Shown here in pieces: positions 21,112 through 57,991 of a stretch of DNA of 64,000 bases. The notes under the pieces are model-generated. The model saw nothing but the letters and a program-made list of their open reading frames with translations, was not told where the DNA came from and ran no database searches. The position numbers were made by a program, and so were the translations under genes. The DNA lies in contig NZ_CP007174.1 of NCBI RefSeq assembly GCF_000730285.1, positions 558,001 to 622,000 on the forward strand, read 5' to 3'. How positions within the stretch are numbered: the stretch's first letter is position 1; every line of letters starts with the position of its first letter. This stretch comes from Candidatus Nitrososphaera evergladensis SR1 (GTDB taxonomy: Archaea; Thermoproteota; Nitrososphaeria; Nitrososphaerales; Nitrososphaeraceae).

Positions 21112-21819
21112 ATGAAGCGAAAAGATCCTAGTGATGCTGAAAAGGTAATCCCGCTCTCAAAACGCATCGTGGCCGAGTTCATTGGAACTTTTACGCTGGT
21201 GTTTGCCGCGGCAGGGGCTAGCGTGGCAGACACGCTCAGCGGGCATGAACTGGGCGCGCTGGCCGTAGTCGCCGCCCCCGGCCTTGCCATTGCCGCAATG
21301 ATTTATGCCGTTGACAAGATATCCGGCGCGTACTTTAACCCCGCAATATCTATTGGCTTTGCCCTTACAGGGCATCTCCGAAAACGCGATCTGCCGTTTT
21401 ACATTGCAGTGCAGGTAGCCGCCGCGATAGTTGCAAGCCTTGTAGTCGCATTTGCAATTGCTCCCTACGGCCATTCGGATGCAACGGGGCTCACAGTACC
21501 TCACACAGGCTGGCTAGCATCGTTTGTCATAGAGATCGTGTTTACGTTCATTCTGATGTTTGTCGCAATCTCGCTCAAGGAGGATGTAGGGTACAAGGCG
21601 TTTGGCGGCATAGCCATAGGCGCAGCGATAACTGCGCTTGGAATAATGGGGATGCCTGTTTCCGGGGCGTCCATGAACCCTGCAAGGTCGTTTGGCCCCG
21701 CCCTGGTGGCAGGAAATTTTTCAGACCAGTGGGTTTACTGGGTAGCGCCAATCATCGGAGCAGTGGTAGCAGTGCTTGCCTTTGAAATGGCAAAGGACAA
21801 CAAAAAGAAGGCAGGCTGA
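21112..21819 (+). CDS. Aquaporin / MIP family channel
   Basis: A 235-residue channel starting MKRKDPSDAEK with six hydrophobic segments and both half-helix NPA motifs: YFNPAIS in loop B and SMNPARSFGPA in loop E. The Arg after the second NPA is the selectivity-filter residue. Size fits the water-channel (AqpM-like) class; glycerol or other small solutes cannot be excluded. An alternative upstream start at 21061 (GTG) would add 17 residues. It lies between two PRC-barrel paralogues. Confidence 0.9.
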   Translation: MKRKDPSDAEKVIPLSKRIVAEFIGTFTLVFAAAGASVADTLSGHELGALAVVAAPGLAIAAMIYAVDKISGAYFNPAISIGFALTGHLRKRDLPFYIAVQVAAAIVASLVVAFAIAPYGHSDATGLTVPHTGWLASFVIEIVFTFILMFVAISLKEDVGYKAFGGIAIGAAITALGIMGMPVSGASMNPARSFGPALVAGNFSDQWVYWVAPIIGAVVAVLAFEMAKDNKKKAG

Positions 21820-48615: not shown

Positions 48616-50289
48616 ATGATGCCTTATTGGCTGAAAAACGCCACAGAAAGGATTCAGGACCAAGCGACAAATGGGAGCATGGGCAAAATAAGATGGACCT
48701 CTTTCTTTATGGCTAGCATACTTGTGTTCTCCATAGCGCTGGTAACACTACACAAAGTGCAAGCCGACTCCATCATTGATTTCAATGGAGATGGCTACGC
48801 CGACATGGCCATCGGAGTTCCTAACGAATCTATCAGTGGGATCAGAGGAGGAGAAGTCAACGTGATTTATGGCTCTTCTTCAGGTCTTGATGCCGCTGCA
48901 GCACAGGCAGACCAAGTTTGGAATCAGGATCTAGGAACAATAGCAGATAGCGTAGAAGCAGGAGATAACTATGGATGGTCGCTTGCAGTAGGCGACTTCA
49001 ATGGTGATGGCTACAGCGATTTGGCCATCGGAATTCCCGATGAAGACGTTGGAAACGCCACTGACGCAGGGGCTGTAAATGTCATCTATGGCTCTGCCTC
49101 CGGCTTGAGTGATACATCACCAATAGCTAACCAATTCTGGACTCAGGACTCTACGAGTATAGCAGATACCGCAGAATCGGGCGATGCATTTGGCTTCAGT
49201 TTGGCTGGAGGCGACTTTAACGGTGATGGCTACAGCGATTTGGCGATAGGCGTTCGTACTGAGGATGTTGGTGCCGTCAACAATGCTGGTGCAGTCAATG
49301 TTATCTACGGCTCTGCCTCCGGCTTGAGCACTTCGGCTCGAGTTGCCAACCAATTCTGGAGTCAAGGCTCTGGTAGCATAGCAGATAGTGCAGAAGACGG
49401 CGACGTATTTGGAGAAGCAGTAACTACAGGAGACTTTAACGGTGATGGCTACAGCGATTTGGCAATTGGAGTTCCAAGCGAAGATATTGGCGCAGTCTCT
49501 AATGGAGGTGCAGTCAACGTCATCTATGGGTCTGAGGACGGCTTGAGCGCTACCTCTCCCGTATCCAACCAATTCTGGAACCAAGATTCTACTAGCATCG
49601 CTGACACGGCTGAAACACAAGATAGTTTTGGGACATCAGTCACTGCTGGTGACTTTAACGGTGATGGGTACAACGATTTGGCAGTCTCGGCGTCGGGTGA
49701 AGGCGCAGTCAATGTTATCTATGGTTCCTCCTCCGGCTTGAGTGCCACAACTCCCATCGCTAACCAATTCTGGCATCATGACTCGGGCGGAATTCTGGGA
49801 ATAGGAAGTGAAGGAAGCTTGGGTGCGCCTTCAACAACAGGTGACTTCAATGGTGATGGCTACAGCGATTTGGCGCTTGCCGCCCAAGGCGAATTCATAA
49901 ACTTCCTCACGTCCTCTGGCGCAGTTAACATACTCTATGGGTCTCCAACTGGTTTGGGCGTGCTTCATAACCAATTCTGGAGTCAGAACTCGCCAGGAAT
50001 AGAAGAGACAAGTGAATCAGGCGATGTTTTCGGTAGCGGCATAGCCGCAGGCGACTTTAACGGTGATGGGTACAACGATTTGGCGATAGGAATACAGTTT
50101 GAAGACTTTGGAACTGTCACCAACGCGGGTGCGGTAGAGGTCATTTACGGATCACCGTTGGGACTTTCTGCAACTATCAAGGCAGACCAATTCTGGACTC
50201 AGGATTCAACAAACGTGGAGGATGTGTCCGAAACTGACGACCACTTTGGTTTCAGCCTGGCCTCAGGTTCAACGGGACCAGGATTGTGA
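48616..50289 (+). CDS. Exported seven-repeat FG-GAP (integrin-alpha-like) beta-propeller
   Basis: A 557-residue surface protein with a leader helix (FFMASILVFSIALVTLHKV) and seven repeats of DFNGDGYSDLAIG, each with a DxNxDGxxD calcium-binding loop, followed by AVNVIYGS-type strands. Seven repeats equal a complete seven-bladed propeller. The last residues (FGFSLASGSTGPGL) end without a membrane anchor. Roles in adhesion or ligand binding are inferred from the fold. Repeats are nearly identical at DNA level, suggesting recent duplication or gene conversion. Confidence 0.88.
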   Translation: MMPYWLKNATERIQDQATNGSMGKIRWTSFFMASILVFSIALVTLHKVQADSIIDFNGDGYADMAIGVPNESISGIRGGEVNVIYGSSSGLDAAAAQADQVWNQDLGTIADSVEAGDNYGWSLAVGDFNGDGYSDLAIGIPDEDVGNATDAGAVNVIYGSASGLSDTSPIANQFWTQDSTSIADTAESGDAFGFSLAGGDFNGDGYSDLAIGVRTEDVGAVNNAGAVNVIYGSASGLSTSARVANQFWSQGSGSIADSAEDGDVFGEAVTTGDFNGDGYSDLAIGVPSEDIGAVSNGGAVNVIYGSEDGLSATSPVSNQFWNQDSTSIADTAETQDSFGTSVTAGDFNGDGYNDLAVSASGEGAVNVIYGSSSGLSATTPIANQFWHHDSGGILGIGSEGSLGAPSTTGDFNGDGYSDLALAAQGEFINFLTSSGAVNILYGSPTGLGVLHNQFWSQNSPGIEETSESGDVFGSGIAAGDFNGDGYNDLAIGIQFEDFGTVTNAGAVEVIYGSPLGLSATIKADQFWTQDSTNVEDVSETDDHFGFSLASGSTGPGL

Positions 50290-51847: not shown

Positions 51848-51855
51848 TTATATAG
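51848..51855 (+). promoter_or_regulatory. TATA box of the S-layer gene
   Basis: TTATATAG lies about 43 bp before the ATG at 51895, giving a leader of about 17 nt. The preceding 150 bp are very A/T-rich, as expected for a highly expressed gene. Confidence 0.6.
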
Positions 51856-51894: not shown

Positions 51895-54800
51895 ATGGAT
51901 TATTCATACGGAAAGAAGAAGTACGCGGGAACTGCATTAGCAGCGCTCATTATTTTTGGCGCAGTAACTGCTGCTCTTGTAGTAGTACCGCACGCTGCTT
52001 ATGCGGCGACTTCAATAACCACAAGCGCAGACAAATTCTATGGACCTAACCTGTTAAGGGTGGTCATCACAGACACAGCAAAGAACACTGCAACAGACAC
52101 AGCTCTAGTACACGTAGATTTTAACCACCTTGGAAGCCCTCTTGGTTCCGCTGACTACACTATAAAGAACATTGGTACCTCTGGTACATTCGAGTTCTTT
52201 ATCACAACCTCAAACACTTTGAACCCAACAGCTCCTACATTTACCGGTACAGGTGGTGCATTCGTTCTCAGAGCTAACACAGTCCCGACTACAGTGAATA
52301 CCAATGATCAGGGAGTGACTCTTGCGTCCCAACTACAAGATCAAGATTCTATAGTCATTACCTACGGTGATTTGCCTCAAAAGACCGTCAGCTTTGCCAA
52401 GAGCAATGCTGTTGCAAACGTTGACAGGAATACTGCAGGCAGTGGTGACAATGTGGTTCTTACCCTTGTAGACAGTGACGCGAACATAGACCCAACAAAA
52501 GCTGACATCTTCAATGCAACAAATCTGGTCTCTGCATCAACAGGCACGCTTACTCTGTCAGGTGCCAAGTTCAGGGAAACCGGACAAAACACCGGTCAGT
52601 TTGAGCTAACTGTTGCCGTCGCTGGACCAGCTCCTCTAAATGGTGCATCACTAACAGCAACTTTCCCATCATCTACCACACTGACAATTAATGACAAAGA
52701 TGTCTACGTAGCAGGAAACGGCCCCGCTCCGTTCGATGTCGTGGGTCCAAACCCAAGCACCATCACCTCGTCAAAATCAGTGACCCTTCAGAACGTTGAT
52801 GGTGTTCTTACAACATTGAAGCCGATTACTCTCGGAAACGGTATCATGCTTCAAGTCACCGACTCTGACAGAAACGTCGACACTAAGTCAAAAGACACCA
52901 TCGGAGTAGGAAATGTTACTGTTCAAGTTGACGGTGTTACGATGCCCTCTCCAATGGTAAATGCAATACCTCTGCAGGAAACAGCTTCTGGTTCCGGCAT
53001 ATTCGTACCAAACACAACAGATAACAAGATTTCAATCAAAGTGGGACCAACCGATAATGTTACCACAACGAGCATACAGTTGACACCTGCTACCATTGCA
53101 TCGGACCCGGACATCACTATCACCTACAATGATCCCGCGGCTGATCCATCAGGTGCAAAAGCCTTCAAGCTGATCACAAAACTAACTCATAGTGCCGGTA
53201 CACTCGCAGGCCCAACACAGGCAGGAGTGACTGACAAGTTCGGCCTCACCATAACCGACCCAGATCTGAACACCAACAGCAAGTCTGTCGATTCATTCAT
53301 CGTCACCTTCCCAGTAAGTCCTGCAAACACTGCTAACGGCGTGAGCTTTGCAAACGGCATGGGTACGATGACTCTGAAGGCAAAGGGCAGCGGTCTTACA
53401 CTTGGCAGCGCATTGACCATGACTTTCATAGAGACAGACATCGATAGCGGTATATTCACTGCAAGCAACATCGACATGTCTATCATCAACGCTGCTGTAT
53501 CAGGCGGCCTGTCAGACGGCGACCAGATTGAGTTCAAATACACAGACAACACAGAATCCCCAACACAATCAAGCACCATAACATTCAACATTGGCAAGCC
53601 AACCGCTTCGATATCCATCAATAGAGGCACAATCCCGATTCCAACAGCAGGAACTGGATCCAAGTTCACAGTGACAATCGTTGACTCGACTAAGAACGTC
53701 AATTCCAACAGCGTCGACACATTCTCAACTGGTGTTACCATTGCAGGGACAAAGAAGGATGGCTCATCAAACCTCGACACAACTATAATGACCGGGCTTG
53801 GTGCCGGCAAGACTTTCACTGAAACGGGTGCAAACACAGGTGTATTCACAGCAGACTATACTGTGGGTTCAGGAACACAAATCGCAGCCAACATGGATAG
53901 CGCCAAGATCAAATTTACATACACAACAGGCGGAACAACGACATCTGCATCTGTCACACTGAGATCCTACGACGGCACAGTATTGTCAAATGTCTCTTCA
54001 GTCCAGAACGGAGGTAACATAACCATAACCGTAAACGACCCCGACATGAACAAGGATTCTGGCACTGCCGAGCAAGTCAGCGTGACAATTCAAGGCAAAA
54101 GCGATGATATAGGCTCAGCAATCACTCTGAGCGATCTCAAGGAAACAGGATCAGACACAGGTGTATTCACAAAGACAATCACGGTAGGAAAGGATTTCAA
54201 GATCTCTGACCTTACCAACAACAAGTTCTCTACCGCATTCGAAATCCACTATGTCGACCTCCTTGCAAGCGACCTTAGCACGAGTGTTGACAGAGAATTT
54301 GACGGAACAGTGAAGACGAGTTCCGGCACAATTGGAATCACTCCAACGATCGTTGGTCCGGGAACAAAGATCTTCATCGAGGTGAAGGATCCAGACCTTA
54401 ACGCCAACCCTGCAGGCATCGACACAACTGCAAGCGGAGTCGAATACATCAGAATAACTTCTGATAGAAGCGGCGCCAATACTCTCACCACTGCACTCGG
54501 CGAGGAAACAGGTTCCAACACTGGAATATTCAGAACCAAGTTGACGCTGAACCCAATCACTGGAGCCACACCATCACCACTCTTCCCGCCAAATACTACA
54601 AAGGAAGTAACTGGATTTGTACTGCCTGGAGATATCCTCTCCATCAGATACACTGACCAGAAAGATGCATCAGGCAGCAAGGCAACTGTGTCCCAAGTGA
54701 TCAAGGTGATCAGCCAAGACCCAGTCATGAACTCCAGCAAGGTGACCATTGACGCAAACGGCTCGGTTCAGGTAACTGTCACCGATGCAGATGCAAATAC

Positions 54801-55440
54801 CGATGGAGATGCAGTCGATTCGATTACGTTGAAGGTCACTTCAACCACTGATCCAGTCGGAATCTCTGTAACTGCGCTCGAGACAGGTGCCAACACCGGA
54901 GTGTTCCGTGGAACCGTTACGACAACAACTGGTGTGACCACAGGTTCGGTCTCTGCTAAGGTTGGAGATAACGTCAACGTGAAGTACACGGACAAGTACC
55001 CGGCTGACTATGCTGACAGGGTAAAGCAGGTGGTAGACCCAAGCAAGGACTTCACCTTTGTTATTCCGGTCGGCACTTCAAGTGGAAGCGGAAACGTGGA
55101 TGCGACATCCGCAGCAAAGCCGGTACTAAAGGACTTTAGCGGCAACGAGTTGACTGAGGTCACGGCAGGCCAGCAGATAGTCTTGTCGTCAACTGTCACC
55201 AACAACCAGAACACGGTGCAGCCATTCGCTGCAATCGTTGAGGTGAGAGACGCTAATGGATTCACCGTCTACCTACAGTGGCAGACAGGCTCTCTGAACC
55301 CGAATGGCTCGACCAACGTTGGGCTGTCATGGACTCCTGATGTATCTGGCACATACACGGCCAGAACATTCGTAGTAACCGACATCGCCCATCCATCGGC
55401 ACTGTCCCAGATATCCGAGTCGACCATAACCGTGAGTTAA
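51895..55440 (+). CDS. Candidate S-layer glycoprotein (giant exported beta-rich protein)
   Basis: A 1181-residue protein with signal peptide (TALAALIIFGAVTAALVVVP then HAAYA) and repeated beta-sandwich/Ig-like modules. Each module carries an acidic loop such as DSDANID, DSDRNVD, DPDLNTNS, DPDMNKD, DPDLNAN or DADANTD, next to ETGSNTGIF/ETGANTGVF-type motifs. This matches thaumarchaeal S-layer proteins such as Nmar_1547. The Asp-rich loops probably bind calcium. No C-terminal membrane helix is present, so it needs an anchor, for which the next gene is a candidate. Assignment is by pattern. Confidence 0.83.
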   Translation: MDYSYGKKKYAGTALAALIIFGAVTAALVVVPHAAYAATSITTSADKFYGPNLLRVVITDTAKNTATDTALVHVDFNHLGSPLGSADYTIKNIGTSGTFEFFITTSNTLNPTAPTFTGTGGAFVLRANTVPTTVNTNDQGVTLASQLQDQDSIVITYGDLPQKTVSFAKSNAVANVDRNTAGSGDNVVLTLVDSDANIDPTKADIFNATNLVSASTGTLTLSGAKFRETGQNTGQFELTVAVAGPAPLNGASLTATFPSSTTLTINDKDVYVAGNGPAPFDVVGPNPSTITSSKSVTLQNVDGVLTTLKPITLGNGIMLQVTDSDRNVDTKSKDTIGVGNVTVQVDGVTMPSPMVNAIPLQETASGSGIFVPNTTDNKISIKVGPTDNVTTTSIQLTPATIASDPDITITYNDPAADPSGAKAFKLITKLTHSAGTLAGPTQAGVTDKFGLTITDPDLNTNSKSVDSFIVTFPVSPANTANGVSFANGMGTMTLKAKGSGLTLGSALTMTFIETDIDSGIFTASNIDMSIINAAVSGGLSDGDQIEFKYTDNTESPTQSSTITFNIGKPTASISINRGTIPIPTAGTGSKFTVTIVDSTKNVNSNSVDTFSTGVTIAGTKKDGSSNLDTTIMTGLGAGKTFTETGANTGVFTADYTVGSGTQIAANMDSAKIKFTYTTGGTTTSASVTLRSYDGTVLSNVSSVQNGGNITITVNDPDMNKDSGTAEQVSVTIQGKSDDIGSAITLSDLKETGSDTGVFTKTITVGKDFKISDLTNNKFSTAFEIHYVDLLASDLSTSVDREFDGTVKTSSGTIGITPTIVGPGTKIFIEVKDPDLNANPAGIDTTASGVEYIRITSDRSGANTLTTALGEETGSNTGIFRTKLTLNPITGATPSPLFPPNTTKEVTGFVLPGDILSIRYTDQKDASGSKATVSQVIKVISQDPVMNSSKVTIDANGSVQVTVTDADANTDGDAVDSITLKVTSTTDPVGISVTALETGANTGVFRGTVTTTTGVTTGSVSAKVGDNVNVKYTDKYPADYADRVKQVVDPSKDFTFVIPVGTSSGSGNVDATSAAKPVLKDFSGNELTEVTAGQQIVLSSTVTNNQNTVQPFAAIVEVRDANGFTVYLQWQTGSLNPNGSTNVGLSWTPDVSGTYTARTFVVTDIAHPSALSQISESTITVS

Positions 55441-55481
55441 GTAGGCTGGAGTAGCCTACTTACTCCCTCCTTTTTGTTTTT
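55438..55481 (+). terminator. Stem-loop plus T-tract between the S-layer and stalk genes
   Basis: TAAGTAGGCT (55438-55447, including the stop codon) pairs perfectly with AGCCTACTTA (55453-55462) over a 5-nt loop (ggagt). A C/T-rich tract and TTTTTGTTTTTG follow (55471-55482). The next gene starts at 55485. It looks like a terminator or attenuator lowering downstream expression. Confidence 0.7.
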
Positions 55482-55484
55482 GAA

Positions 55485-56489
55485 ATGAAAAATTACGTTT
55501 TAACGTCAAGTCTTATGATGATGACTCTAATAATTGCCGCGAACTTTACCGCGCCAGCGCAAGCCCAGACCGTAGTCCAAGCTCCACGCATTATATTTCT
55601 GGTAAATCAGGATAACTTTTTACCTGGCGACATTCTGATCGCGTATGGCAAGAGCTTTGCAAATGATACCATTGTTATCAGGATATTTGATCCCGCCGGC
55701 AAGGCTGTTAGAATAGAATCAATAAAGGCAGATGCTAATGGCTCGTTTACTGAGCAGATCTTTTTGTGGCCGCAGCCGTCAAAGAACTTTGTATTTGGCC
55801 GCTACATGATCGAGGCGGCCTCGACCATTGTTCCCACCTACAAGGAAAGCCGCACGGTATCCTTCTCTGACATACCGTCTGCCGGCTCGCCGCAATTTCA
55901 ATCCAACATACTATCCATAAAGCTCGACTCGCCTACAGAGATCTCTGTGGGCAAAACATTTAGGATATTCGTGCAGGTGACCTTTGACGGGGCACTTGTA
56001 AACGTAGATGATCCAAACCAGCTACTGTCATCTTCGCATATCCATTCTGGCAACGACACGATAAACCTCTTCGGCAAGTTTGTCAAACTCCATGAGGGCA
56101 TCTATTACGCTGACGTCAAGTTGGACAAAGAAGGCTCATATATCATACACGCAATAGCCTTCCACAGAGGTTTTCTCGCCCATGACTCCAAGGTGGTGTC
56201 AAGTGGAAGCAGCATTGGCGAGATACAGGAATCCGTCAACTCGCTCAAGGCCGAGCTCGACAGGACGAGCCATGAGCTGAATGCTACACGTAATGACTTA
56301 ACTCAATCGGTGAATGATGCAAGAGCGGCTATTAAGGGCGATATTGAACAGGCAGGATCGGCTGTGAACCAGCTGAGCCAGGCCTCTGGCCAGATAAACT
56401 CTATCATCTTGCCCATCCTGGCGCTCATTTCAGTGATAATCGCGCTCCAGATCTCGCTTTTCGCCCGTATCAGGGCATCCTTCAAATAA
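55485..56489 (+). CDS. Stalk-like membrane-anchored protein next to the S-layer gene
   Basis: A 334-residue protein. Layout: signal peptide (SSLMMMTLIIAANFTAPAQA), beta-sandwich region about 30-230 (PRIIFLVNQDNFLPGDILIA, SFTEQIFLWPQ, GIYYADVKLDKEGSYIIHAI), a heptad coiled coil about 245-300 (LKAELDRTSHELNATRNDL) and a C-terminal helix (SIILPILALISVIIALQISL) with a basic end (ARIRASFK). This is the architecture of Sulfolobus SlaB, the anchor that lifts the S-layer. It lies 44 bp after the S-layer gene. Homology to SlaB is not shown; the role is inferred from architecture and location. Confidence 0.72.
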   Translation: MKNYVLTSSLMMMTLIIAANFTAPAQAQTVVQAPRIIFLVNQDNFLPGDILIAYGKSFANDTIVIRIFDPAGKAVRIESIKADANGSFTEQIFLWPQPSKNFVFGRYMIEAASTIVPTYKESRTVSFSDIPSAGSPQFQSNILSIKLDSPTEISVGKTFRIFVQVTFDGALVNVDDPNQLLSSSHIHSGNDTINLFGKFVKLHEGIYYADVKLDKEGSYIIHAIAFHRGFLAHDSKVVSSGSSIGEIQESVNSLKAELDRTSHELNATRNDLTQSVNDARAAIKGDIEQAGSAVNQLSQASGQINSIILPILALISVIIALQISLFARIRASFK

Positions 56490-56578: not shown

Positions 56579-57991
56579 TTATTCTCCTTCACTTGCTTTC
56601 GTCATCAGGCCTGCAATCAGCTTGTCTACATCTGCTGTGCTGTAGATGTGATCAAATGTCTGGATCAGCCATACCTTCTGACCGTCTGTGAGATCATGCC
56701 AGTGCATTATGGGCCCGTCGTCAATCTTGACAACTTTGTACTGATTGTTCCATTGCAAAATATTCTCATCATGTGTCTTGTATGTTGCCTCGATAGTGAA
56801 GAGGTAATCGATCGGGTATGCTCTCATTAGAAAGTTGTTGTTGTAGTTGGCTTCATTATCGTGTGCTGGAAGATTGGCTGTGCCGTTTCCTGCGACATAT
56901 GTTGTGATAAAGTACGCCAAATAGTCATTATACACTGGCCTGCGACCTATTCCGTTCTGCGAAGAGTTGCTGCCATTACTATTGCTGTCATTGTCTCCAC
57001 TCCAGCCATCTGAGCCTGGCGTAACTGCTTGTGAGAATGTCTTCGTTGTGTATCCTCTGTCCGTTATGTCGCTAAACAGCTGGTCAAGGTCACCAAGCTC
57101 GCTGGTAGAAACCTCTTCAGTGGCATTGCCATCATTATCTTTGACAGCAAAATCCTGTGGATGCAGAGTCACTACTGCGTATCCGTATGATGAAATTGCT
57201 TCGTCAATGCTCGCCATTATGTTTTCTATTTCGACTTTTTCGTGTGGGAATGTTCCGTGGTCATAGTAGCCTATAGTTTGTGGCAGGTGGTAGATGCCAA
57301 AGTCATCTTTAATGTCCGAGCCCTCAAATGCCCTGTAGATTTTGTTGTCGGGGCTGTCTGGGTTGCCTGGGTTGTAAATTTCTGGTAGCTCCAAGTTAAA
57401 CTGCGCACTGATGACTTTCATGTCGAGATCTTGGAGTGCGGCAAGTGTGTCTTCGTTGTATTCATGGAAGGGTGGGATAAATGCACCGACGGGGCTGATT
57501 CCAAAAAGCGAAGTGATGTTTCCGTTTGCATTTGATAGGTCGTTGTACTGCTCTTCTGCGGACATGTCTGCGTATGATTCATGGTTCTGGCTGTGATTGA
57601 CTACCTCAAAGTTGCCGGAATCAAGTCCGTGCTTTACTGCATTGACTACGTTATCGTCTTCTCCGATGTAGTTCGTTATTATTCCGAGGGTGAGTTTTTC
57701 ATGCTCGCTGATGAACTTCTCCATCACCGCAACCTGTACGTCACTTAGCCAGTAATCCTGCACGTCGTCTAGCCTAAAAATGACGCAATTGCAGGCCTCT
57801 GGATTATTGTTGCTGTTGTTGCTGCTTTCGTCGTCTGCATACGCCGACCGAGGGACAGAAACTAGGATGCCTAGAACAAGCACCAATGCTGCAGATACCG
57901 CCAAGAGCGTTCTGGCAGTTATCTTTACCTTGGCGCCGACTCTTTTCCTCCTATCCTTACTATCGTCGATCGGTCGGTAAGATGTATACAT
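56579..57991 (-). CDS. Exported polysaccharide deacetylase with C-terminal DLTDGQ motif
   Basis: A 470-residue protein. A membrane/signal helix (ARTLLAVSAALVLVLGILVS) and linker precede a NodB-type deacetylase domain: IFRLDDVQDYW (metal Asp), VVNHSQNHESYADM (metal His pair), AFIPPFHEYNEDTL and VVTLHPQDF. A Gly/Ser/Asn-rich linker leads to a C-terminal region ending DLTDGQKVWLIQTFDHIYS, shared with the 44327-45256 product. The enzyme would remove acetyl groups from surface polysaccharide outside the membrane. Substrate unknown. Confidence 0.83.
   Translation of the reverse strand: MYTSYRPIDDSKDRRKRVGAKVKITARTLLAVSAALVLVLGILVSVPRSAYADDESSNNSNNNPEACNCVIFRLDDVQDYWLSDVQVAVMEKFISEHEKLTLGIITNYIGEDDNVVNAVKHGLDSGNFEVVNHSQNHESYADMSAEEQYNDLSNANGNITSLFGISPVGAFIPPFHEYNEDTLAALQDLDMKVISAQFNLELPEIYNPGNPDSPDNKIYRAFEGSDIKDDFGIYHLPQTIGYYDHGTFPHEKVEIENIMASIDEAISSYGYAVVTLHPQDFAVKDNDGNATEEVSTSELGDLDQLFSDITDRGYTTKTFSQAVTPGSDGWSGDNDSNSNGSNSSQNGIGRRPVYNDYLAYFITTYVAGNGTANLPAHDNEANYNNNFLMRAYPIDYLFTIEATYKTHDENILQWNNQYKVVKIDDGPIMHWHDLTDGQKVWLIQTFDHIYSTADVDKLIAGLMTKASEGE

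Follow-up and report, generated by a model that had tools for sequence, protein, structure and literature searches.

The window analyzed here, a stretch of 64,000 nucleotides spanning positions 558001–622000 of the single contig of Candidatus Nitrososphaera evergladensis SR1, contains two adjacent genes that very probably encode an S-layer canopy protein and its SlaB-type membrane stalk, co-transcribed with partial termination between them, with the C-terminal domain of the canopy protein as the best docking candidate. The evidence is computational, and comprises homology of both proteins to known S-layer components, the adjacency of their genes, a predicted coiled coil and membrane helix in the stalk, a conserved C-terminal domain in the canopy protein, and a hairpin and pyrimidine tract in the spacer. 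A first-pass annotation of this DNA had read the pair as an S-layer candidate followed by a SlaB-like stalk protein, and the canopy identity, stalk homology and adjacency that we computed support that reading. Of the refuting outcomes that it listed, none of those open to computation was observed.

In the arrangement we propose, the upstream gene would supply an exported canopy protein, made in abundance and tiling the cell surface, and the downstream gene a SlaB-type anchor whose two beta-sandwiches would face the canopy. The coiled-coil rod of the stalk is probably a trimer, as in Sulfolobus, and its one membrane helix would leave the basic end in the cytoplasm. A single promoter probably drives transcription of both genes, and a hairpin and T tract past the canopy stop codon would cause partial termination, letting a fraction of transcription reach slaB, so that canopy would outnumber stalk. 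Within the canopy protein, our best candidate for reaching toward the stalk or the membrane is the C-terminal Ig-like domain, through which we infer that the canopy docks on SlaB.

The canopy protein

The upstream gene (51895–55440; all features of the pair lie on the + strand) encodes a protein of 1181 aa, residues 746–1181 of which matched the S-layer protein of N. maritimus (NmSLP, 8c8k_A) in a phmmer search (E 6.6e-28). Hydropathy gave a single N-terminal segment at residues 13–31, read as a signal peptide, and no second membrane segment was seen across the 1181 residues. By inspection of the cleavage site, the signal peptide comprises residues 1–37 (51895–52005) and ends in AYA. The C-terminal domain (residues 1067–1181; 55093–55437), supported by the profile A4 described below, hhalign and a predicted model, was modelled as an Ig-like sandwich. 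The protein thus resembles NmSLP both in sequence, including the C-terminal domain, and in being exported, beta-rich and without a membrane helix, the last of which the first-pass annotation had already recognized from this open reading frame.

The counterpart in N. viennensis (L075, genome G015) is 54% identical to the window protein. Counted from its fourth codon it has 1199 residues with a sequon at N1181, and because these values fit the reported protein (PMC12153357), it is probably NVIE_016740, the abundant glycosylated S-layer protein of N. viennensis identified by mass spectrometry (PMC12153357). The N. viennensis S-layer protein cross-links to ammonia monooxygenase (PMC10030591). Homology to NmSLP, the protein for which lattice formation has been shown, together with this counterpart, identifies the 1181-aa product as an S-layer canopy protein. 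A TATA-box-like element, TTATATAG, was read from the sequence at 51848–51855, about 40 nt 5' of the canopy start codon, and is the probable promoter of the canopy and stalk pair.

The stalk protein

The downstream gene (55485–56489) encodes a protein of 334 aa. When a profile of 31 of its relatives (A2) was compared with the PDB, SlaB of S. acidocaldarius (8qox_B) was the top sequence (E 2.7e-17), with two matching stretches that together cover the protein from close to its N-terminus as far as the membrane helix. The first beta-sandwich (residues 34–131; 55584–55877) matched SlaB by itself with an i-E of 3.9e-9, and the match is therefore not a coiled-coil artefact. The 31-sequence profile was needed for this result. 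A phmmer search of the 334-aa protein directly against the PDB returned coiled-coil matches only, Pfam scans of single proteins were uninformative, giving weak matches dominated by the coiled coil for the stalk, and a scan of the genome collection with the single protein returned one locus. The NCBIfam equivalog model of Metallosphaera SlaB (NF040788) matched the stalk with 39.3 bits (E 3.6e-10), short of the curated cut-off of 700. Because only 5 of 349 genomes pass this cut-off, and the S. acidocaldarius control also fails it, we take it to define a subgroup and not all SlaB.

An AlphaFold2 model of the stalk (mean pLDDT 73.8), built on a shallow alignment of two sequences, the window protein and one related locus, consists mainly of strands up to residue 240, including a second beta-sandwich at residues 141–240 (55905–56204), followed by a single 90-residue helix at 244–333. 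Foldseek placed 8qox_B at rank 9 for this model (E 5.3e-7), with low TM-scores, amid generic Ig-like folds. Residues 244–306 of the helix (56214–56402) form the predicted coiled coil: the helical region has a periodicity of 3.5 residues (p = 0.0004 against shuffles), with up to 72% apolar residues at the a and d positions. Hydropathy marked an N-terminal segment and a transmembrane helix at residues 307–325, which together with the basic tail FARIRASFK that follows it occupies 56403–56486, and the membrane helix is among the best-conserved stretches in the 31-sequence alignment of the family. That relatives keep these features indicates that they exceed chance. Hydropathy, structure prediction and periodicity agree on the signal peptide, beta-sandwich region, heptad coiled coil, C-terminal membrane helix and basic end listed in the first-pass annotation, and the structure prediction that it had recommended returned the helix that holds both coiled coil and membrane segment. 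Its comparison with SlaB had rested on order and architecture, to which homology is now added. By sequence comparison with the characterized SlaB, by this architecture, with two beta domains in place of three, and by the position of its gene directly 3' of the canopy gene, the 334-aa protein is a SlaB homologue.

In two SlaB homologues, L067 (G106) and L073 (G113), the coiled coil is replaced by a stalk that is rich in Thr and Ser and possibly O-glycosylated.

Gene order and co-occurrence in relatives

The first-pass annotation had suggested looking for the same adjacency in related genomes, and the pair was found to be well kept. Of the 32 loci that we retrieved around SlaB homologues of the GTDB order, a contig end truncates two (L069 and L070) immediately 5' of the gene, and in 28 of the other 30 the canopy gene lies directly 5' of the stalk gene. 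In 27 of these loci the product of the same-strand gene 5' of slaB matches the window canopy protein, and in the 28th (L074) it bears the canopy C-terminal domain (E 2.5e-11). The two exceptions are G108 and L066, the latter an additional slaB-like copy, from a genome with a normal pair as well. Among the 21 class members of a second sample, which overlaps partly with the first locus set, the top match to the C-terminal domain was directly upstream of the top SlaB match in 19, the exceptions being G108 and G204. Since slaB is unlinked from the canopy gene in these two genomes, adjacency is not essential. Raw counts, uncorrected for shared ancestry, in genomes at least 90% complete gave 24 with both genes, two with the stalk only, one with the canopy only and 44 with neither. 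Nitrosocosmicus is reported to lack both slp and slaB (PMC11559005).

The unlinked slaB genes, both from Nitrosopumilaceae-like genomes (L086 in G108 and L157 in G204), are followed within about 6 nt by a gene for another large exported protein.

The canopy C-terminal domain across Thermoproteota

Profile A4, made from the last 115 residues of the canopy proteins of the class, matched residues 1621–1734 of 8c8k_A (E 1.1e-43) and gave zero matches in reversed and shuffled controls; whole genomes were searched with it in six frames. In other families of Thermoproteota, the upstream neighbor of the SlaB homologue is usually an exported protein of 1000–1430 aa. Outside the class, the best A4 match was the gene directly upstream of slaB in all 12 genomes with a match (G137, G138, G139, G146, G152, G276, G316, G322, G344, G378, G399 and G437); seven of the 12 had been picked for slaB hits, which favours slaB-bearing genomes, and the position of the best match within each genome was unselected. 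Among these upstream genes are those of Metallosphaera-type SlaA, at E 3.6e-7 to 8.0e-10, and of a further Sulfolobales SlaA (5e-14). Six-frame searches of four other Sulfolobales genomes yielded no match, and in the PDB the profile did not detect the S. acidocaldarius SlaA chain. Profile-profile comparison by hhalign gave a probability of 97.8 for Metallosphaera-type SlaA, at its C-terminus only, 99.9% for family f20 and 96.6% for family f32, and detected no similarity to Sulfolobus-type SlaA. On these sequence matches the canopy C-terminal domain is homologous to that of Metallosphaera-type SlaA, and the claim of shared ancestry directly covers part of the Sulfolobales only. SlaA has been described as having no homologue outside Sulfolobales (PMC5744192), and virtually no homology to other structurally characterized proteins (PMC10903991); for the C-terminal domain, both statements look too strong.

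The domain was predicted as an Ig-like sandwich (pLDDT 81, from a shallow alignment). Foldseek matched the model to generic Ig-like folds led by the carbohydrate-binding domain of Wzt, with CARDB domains near and SlaA absent from the top 50, and a search of a viral library with the domain also returned generic Ig-like matches. With so generic a fold, Ig-like or of the CARDB type, the argument for ancestry depends in large part on position and gene pairing.

A model of the Sulfolobus S-layer proposes that SlaA contacts SlaB through its C-terminal D6 dimerizing domains (PMC10903991), and the N. maritimus authors suggested that the unresolved last domain of the canopy protein, NmSLP domain 10, may anchor to other envelope molecules (PMC11153153). 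The shared C-terminal domain links these two proposals. We suggest tentatively, and with less than even confidence, that the canopy-stalk pair is an inheritance of much of Thermoproteota, in which the C-terminal Ig-like domain (SlaA D6, NmSLP domain 10) serves as a conserved docking module for SlaB. If so, SlaA and the S-layer proteins of thaumarchaea would have common ancestry in this domain at the least, and other proteins of this genome that bear it could dock to the coat likewise.

The canopy might instead be anchored mainly by its own C-terminal domain, through binding of envelope glycans or glycolipids, with the SlaB homologue a minor accessory or an organizer of other membrane proteins. 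The domain 10 suggestion and the low SlaB abundance reported with it (PMC11153153) fit this explanation, as do the likeness of the domain model to Wzt and CARDB and the recurrence of the domain in 13 other open reading frames of this genome. We nevertheless regard it as unlikely, since the gene with the C-terminal domain and slaB keep together as neighbours, slp and slaB are jointly present or absent in most complete genomes, and the Sulfolobus model has the D6 domains meeting SlaB. Docking of the canopy on the SlaB-type stalk is the reading that we prefer.

The 13 other domain-bearing open reading frames (L111–L123) lie on contig C1 of this genome (G000) at 21431, 59252, 73704, 142917, 1425221, 1839485, 2156873, 2177692, 2233066, 2239822, 2496498, 2503774 and 2809487, and many consist of a signal peptide and a single domain. 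The domain is apparently fused to a nuclease-like domain in L118, and to a polysaccharide deacetylase-like region in L119.

The spacer between the genes

The intergenic gap is 44 nt, with the slaB start at 55485. A 10-bp hairpin, TAAGTAGGCT-GGAGT-AGCCTACTTA (55438–55462), includes the canopy stop codon; its minimum free energy is -14 kcal/mol (z -2.2), and its stem was matched in none of 400 shuffles. It is followed by a terminator-like pyrimidine/T tract, CTCCCTCCTTTTTGTTTTT (55463–55481). A terminator-like match was found at 55448–55466, and such matches overall were not above shuffled expectation. Pairing was read from each sequence separately, since MAFFT placed the hairpins out of register when the spacers were aligned. 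Among 10 close relatives, 5 have a strong hairpin (0–3 of 400 shuffles match it), and it shows paired changes, such as GGCT/AGCC in the window to GGTT/AACC in L075; stem length across the class was not enriched. The pyrimidine tract follows the canopy stop codon in most relatives, and is commoner there than at control stops (p 4.9e-6).

The hairpin and tract may hold expression of the stalk below that of the canopy. In Sulfolobales, slaA and slaB are bicistronic and the slaA transcript is far above that of slaB (PMC5744192), and the SlaB homologue of N. maritimus is far scarcer than the canopy protein (PMC11153153); both observations make partial termination between the genes plausible. A different reading draws on the terminator-like tract and the spacing of just 44 nt: the hairpin and T tract would end a transcript of the canopy gene alone, and a separate promoter within that gene would serve the stalk. 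This reading is quite improbable: no TATA-like element was visible by inspection just before the stalk gene, and in many distant relatives the gap is shorter than 20 nt or the genes overlap, which favours a single transcript. Co-transcription with partial termination accordingly remains our preferred explanation of the spacer.

The region around the canopy stop codon (55438–55467) can form two overlapping, mutually exclusive hairpins. The alternative hairpin, read from the sequence, pairs GGAGT/ACTCC in the window, AGAGT/ACTCT in the N. viennensis-like L075 and GAGGTA/TACCTC in the N. gargensis-like L079, and both hairpins keep their pairing through base changes in these two loci.

Comparison with known S-layers

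The first-pass annotation had regarded a dedicated stalk protein as not established for thaumarchaeal S-layers. This is out of date as far as prediction goes: most Nitrososphaerota were reported in 2024 to have, as a minor protein, a SlaB homologue with a membrane domain at its C-terminus (PMC11153153, Nature), and slp and slaB were mapped across cultured ammonia-oxidising archaea in the same year (PMC11559005, mBio). The papers searched yielded no biochemical demonstration of the stalk. That Nitrososphaerota have SlaB homologues is already published, and what we did not meet in those papers, which included few subscription papers and so are a weak guide, is the pair as conserved across much of Thermoproteota, the link of the C-terminal domain to SlaA, or the spacer element.

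The closest likeness is to N. viennensis, the closest studied relative of the window genome, where NVIE_016740 and the next gene are 54% (canopy) and 83–85% (stalk) identical to the window pair, with the same order and the same 44-nt spacer with hairpin; we found no important difference. Homology of the canopy protein to N. maritimus NmSLP (Nmar_1547, PDB 8c8k) is strongest at the C-terminus, and the reported SlaB homologue of that species also has a C-terminal membrane helix (PMC11153153). However, NmSLP has 1734 aa compared with 1181 aa for the window protein, and forms a p6 lattice, whereas that of N. viennensis is p3 with a spacing of about 21 nm (PMC4129164), like the p3 lattice of about 21 nm in Sulfolobales. 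Sulfolobales SlaB is homologous to the window stalk along its length, and the gene order is the same, but S. acidocaldarius SlaB has three beta domains and a helix of 132 residues, compared with two domains and 90 residues here, and similarity of the window canopy protein to Sulfolobus-type SlaA is not detectable. It is scarcely credible that the 334-aa protein only resembles SlaB, being a membrane-anchored coiled-coil protein of unrelated origin such as one processed by an archaeosortase, since its weak, coiled-coil-dominated Pfam matches and missed NCBIfam cut-off are outweighed by a beta domain that matches SlaB without the coiled coil and by a gene order that agrees with slaA-slaB across lineages. 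Archaeosortase processing was set aside because the stalk sequence preceding the membrane helix lacks a PEFG-type motif.

In ammonia-oxidising archaea the S-layer forms the outermost barrier and is believed to concentrate ammonium, and how it is held off the membrane therefore bears on nitrification. The pair described here is a concrete, genetically linked candidate for the anchor, and the analysis points to the domain that most probably contacts it. The phylum-wide arrangement suggests an evolutionary explanation of why N. viennensis has an unexpected p3 lattice, and it calls into question the view (PMC5744192) that relatives of SlaA are confined to Sulfolobales.

Two other genes for exported proteins flank the pair in the window. 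An FG-GAP beta-propeller protein (Pfam PF01839, E 5e-64) is encoded upstream on the same strand at 48616–50289, and a polysaccharide deacetylase (PF01522, E 3.6e-11) on the opposite strand at 56579–57991, just past the stalk gene.
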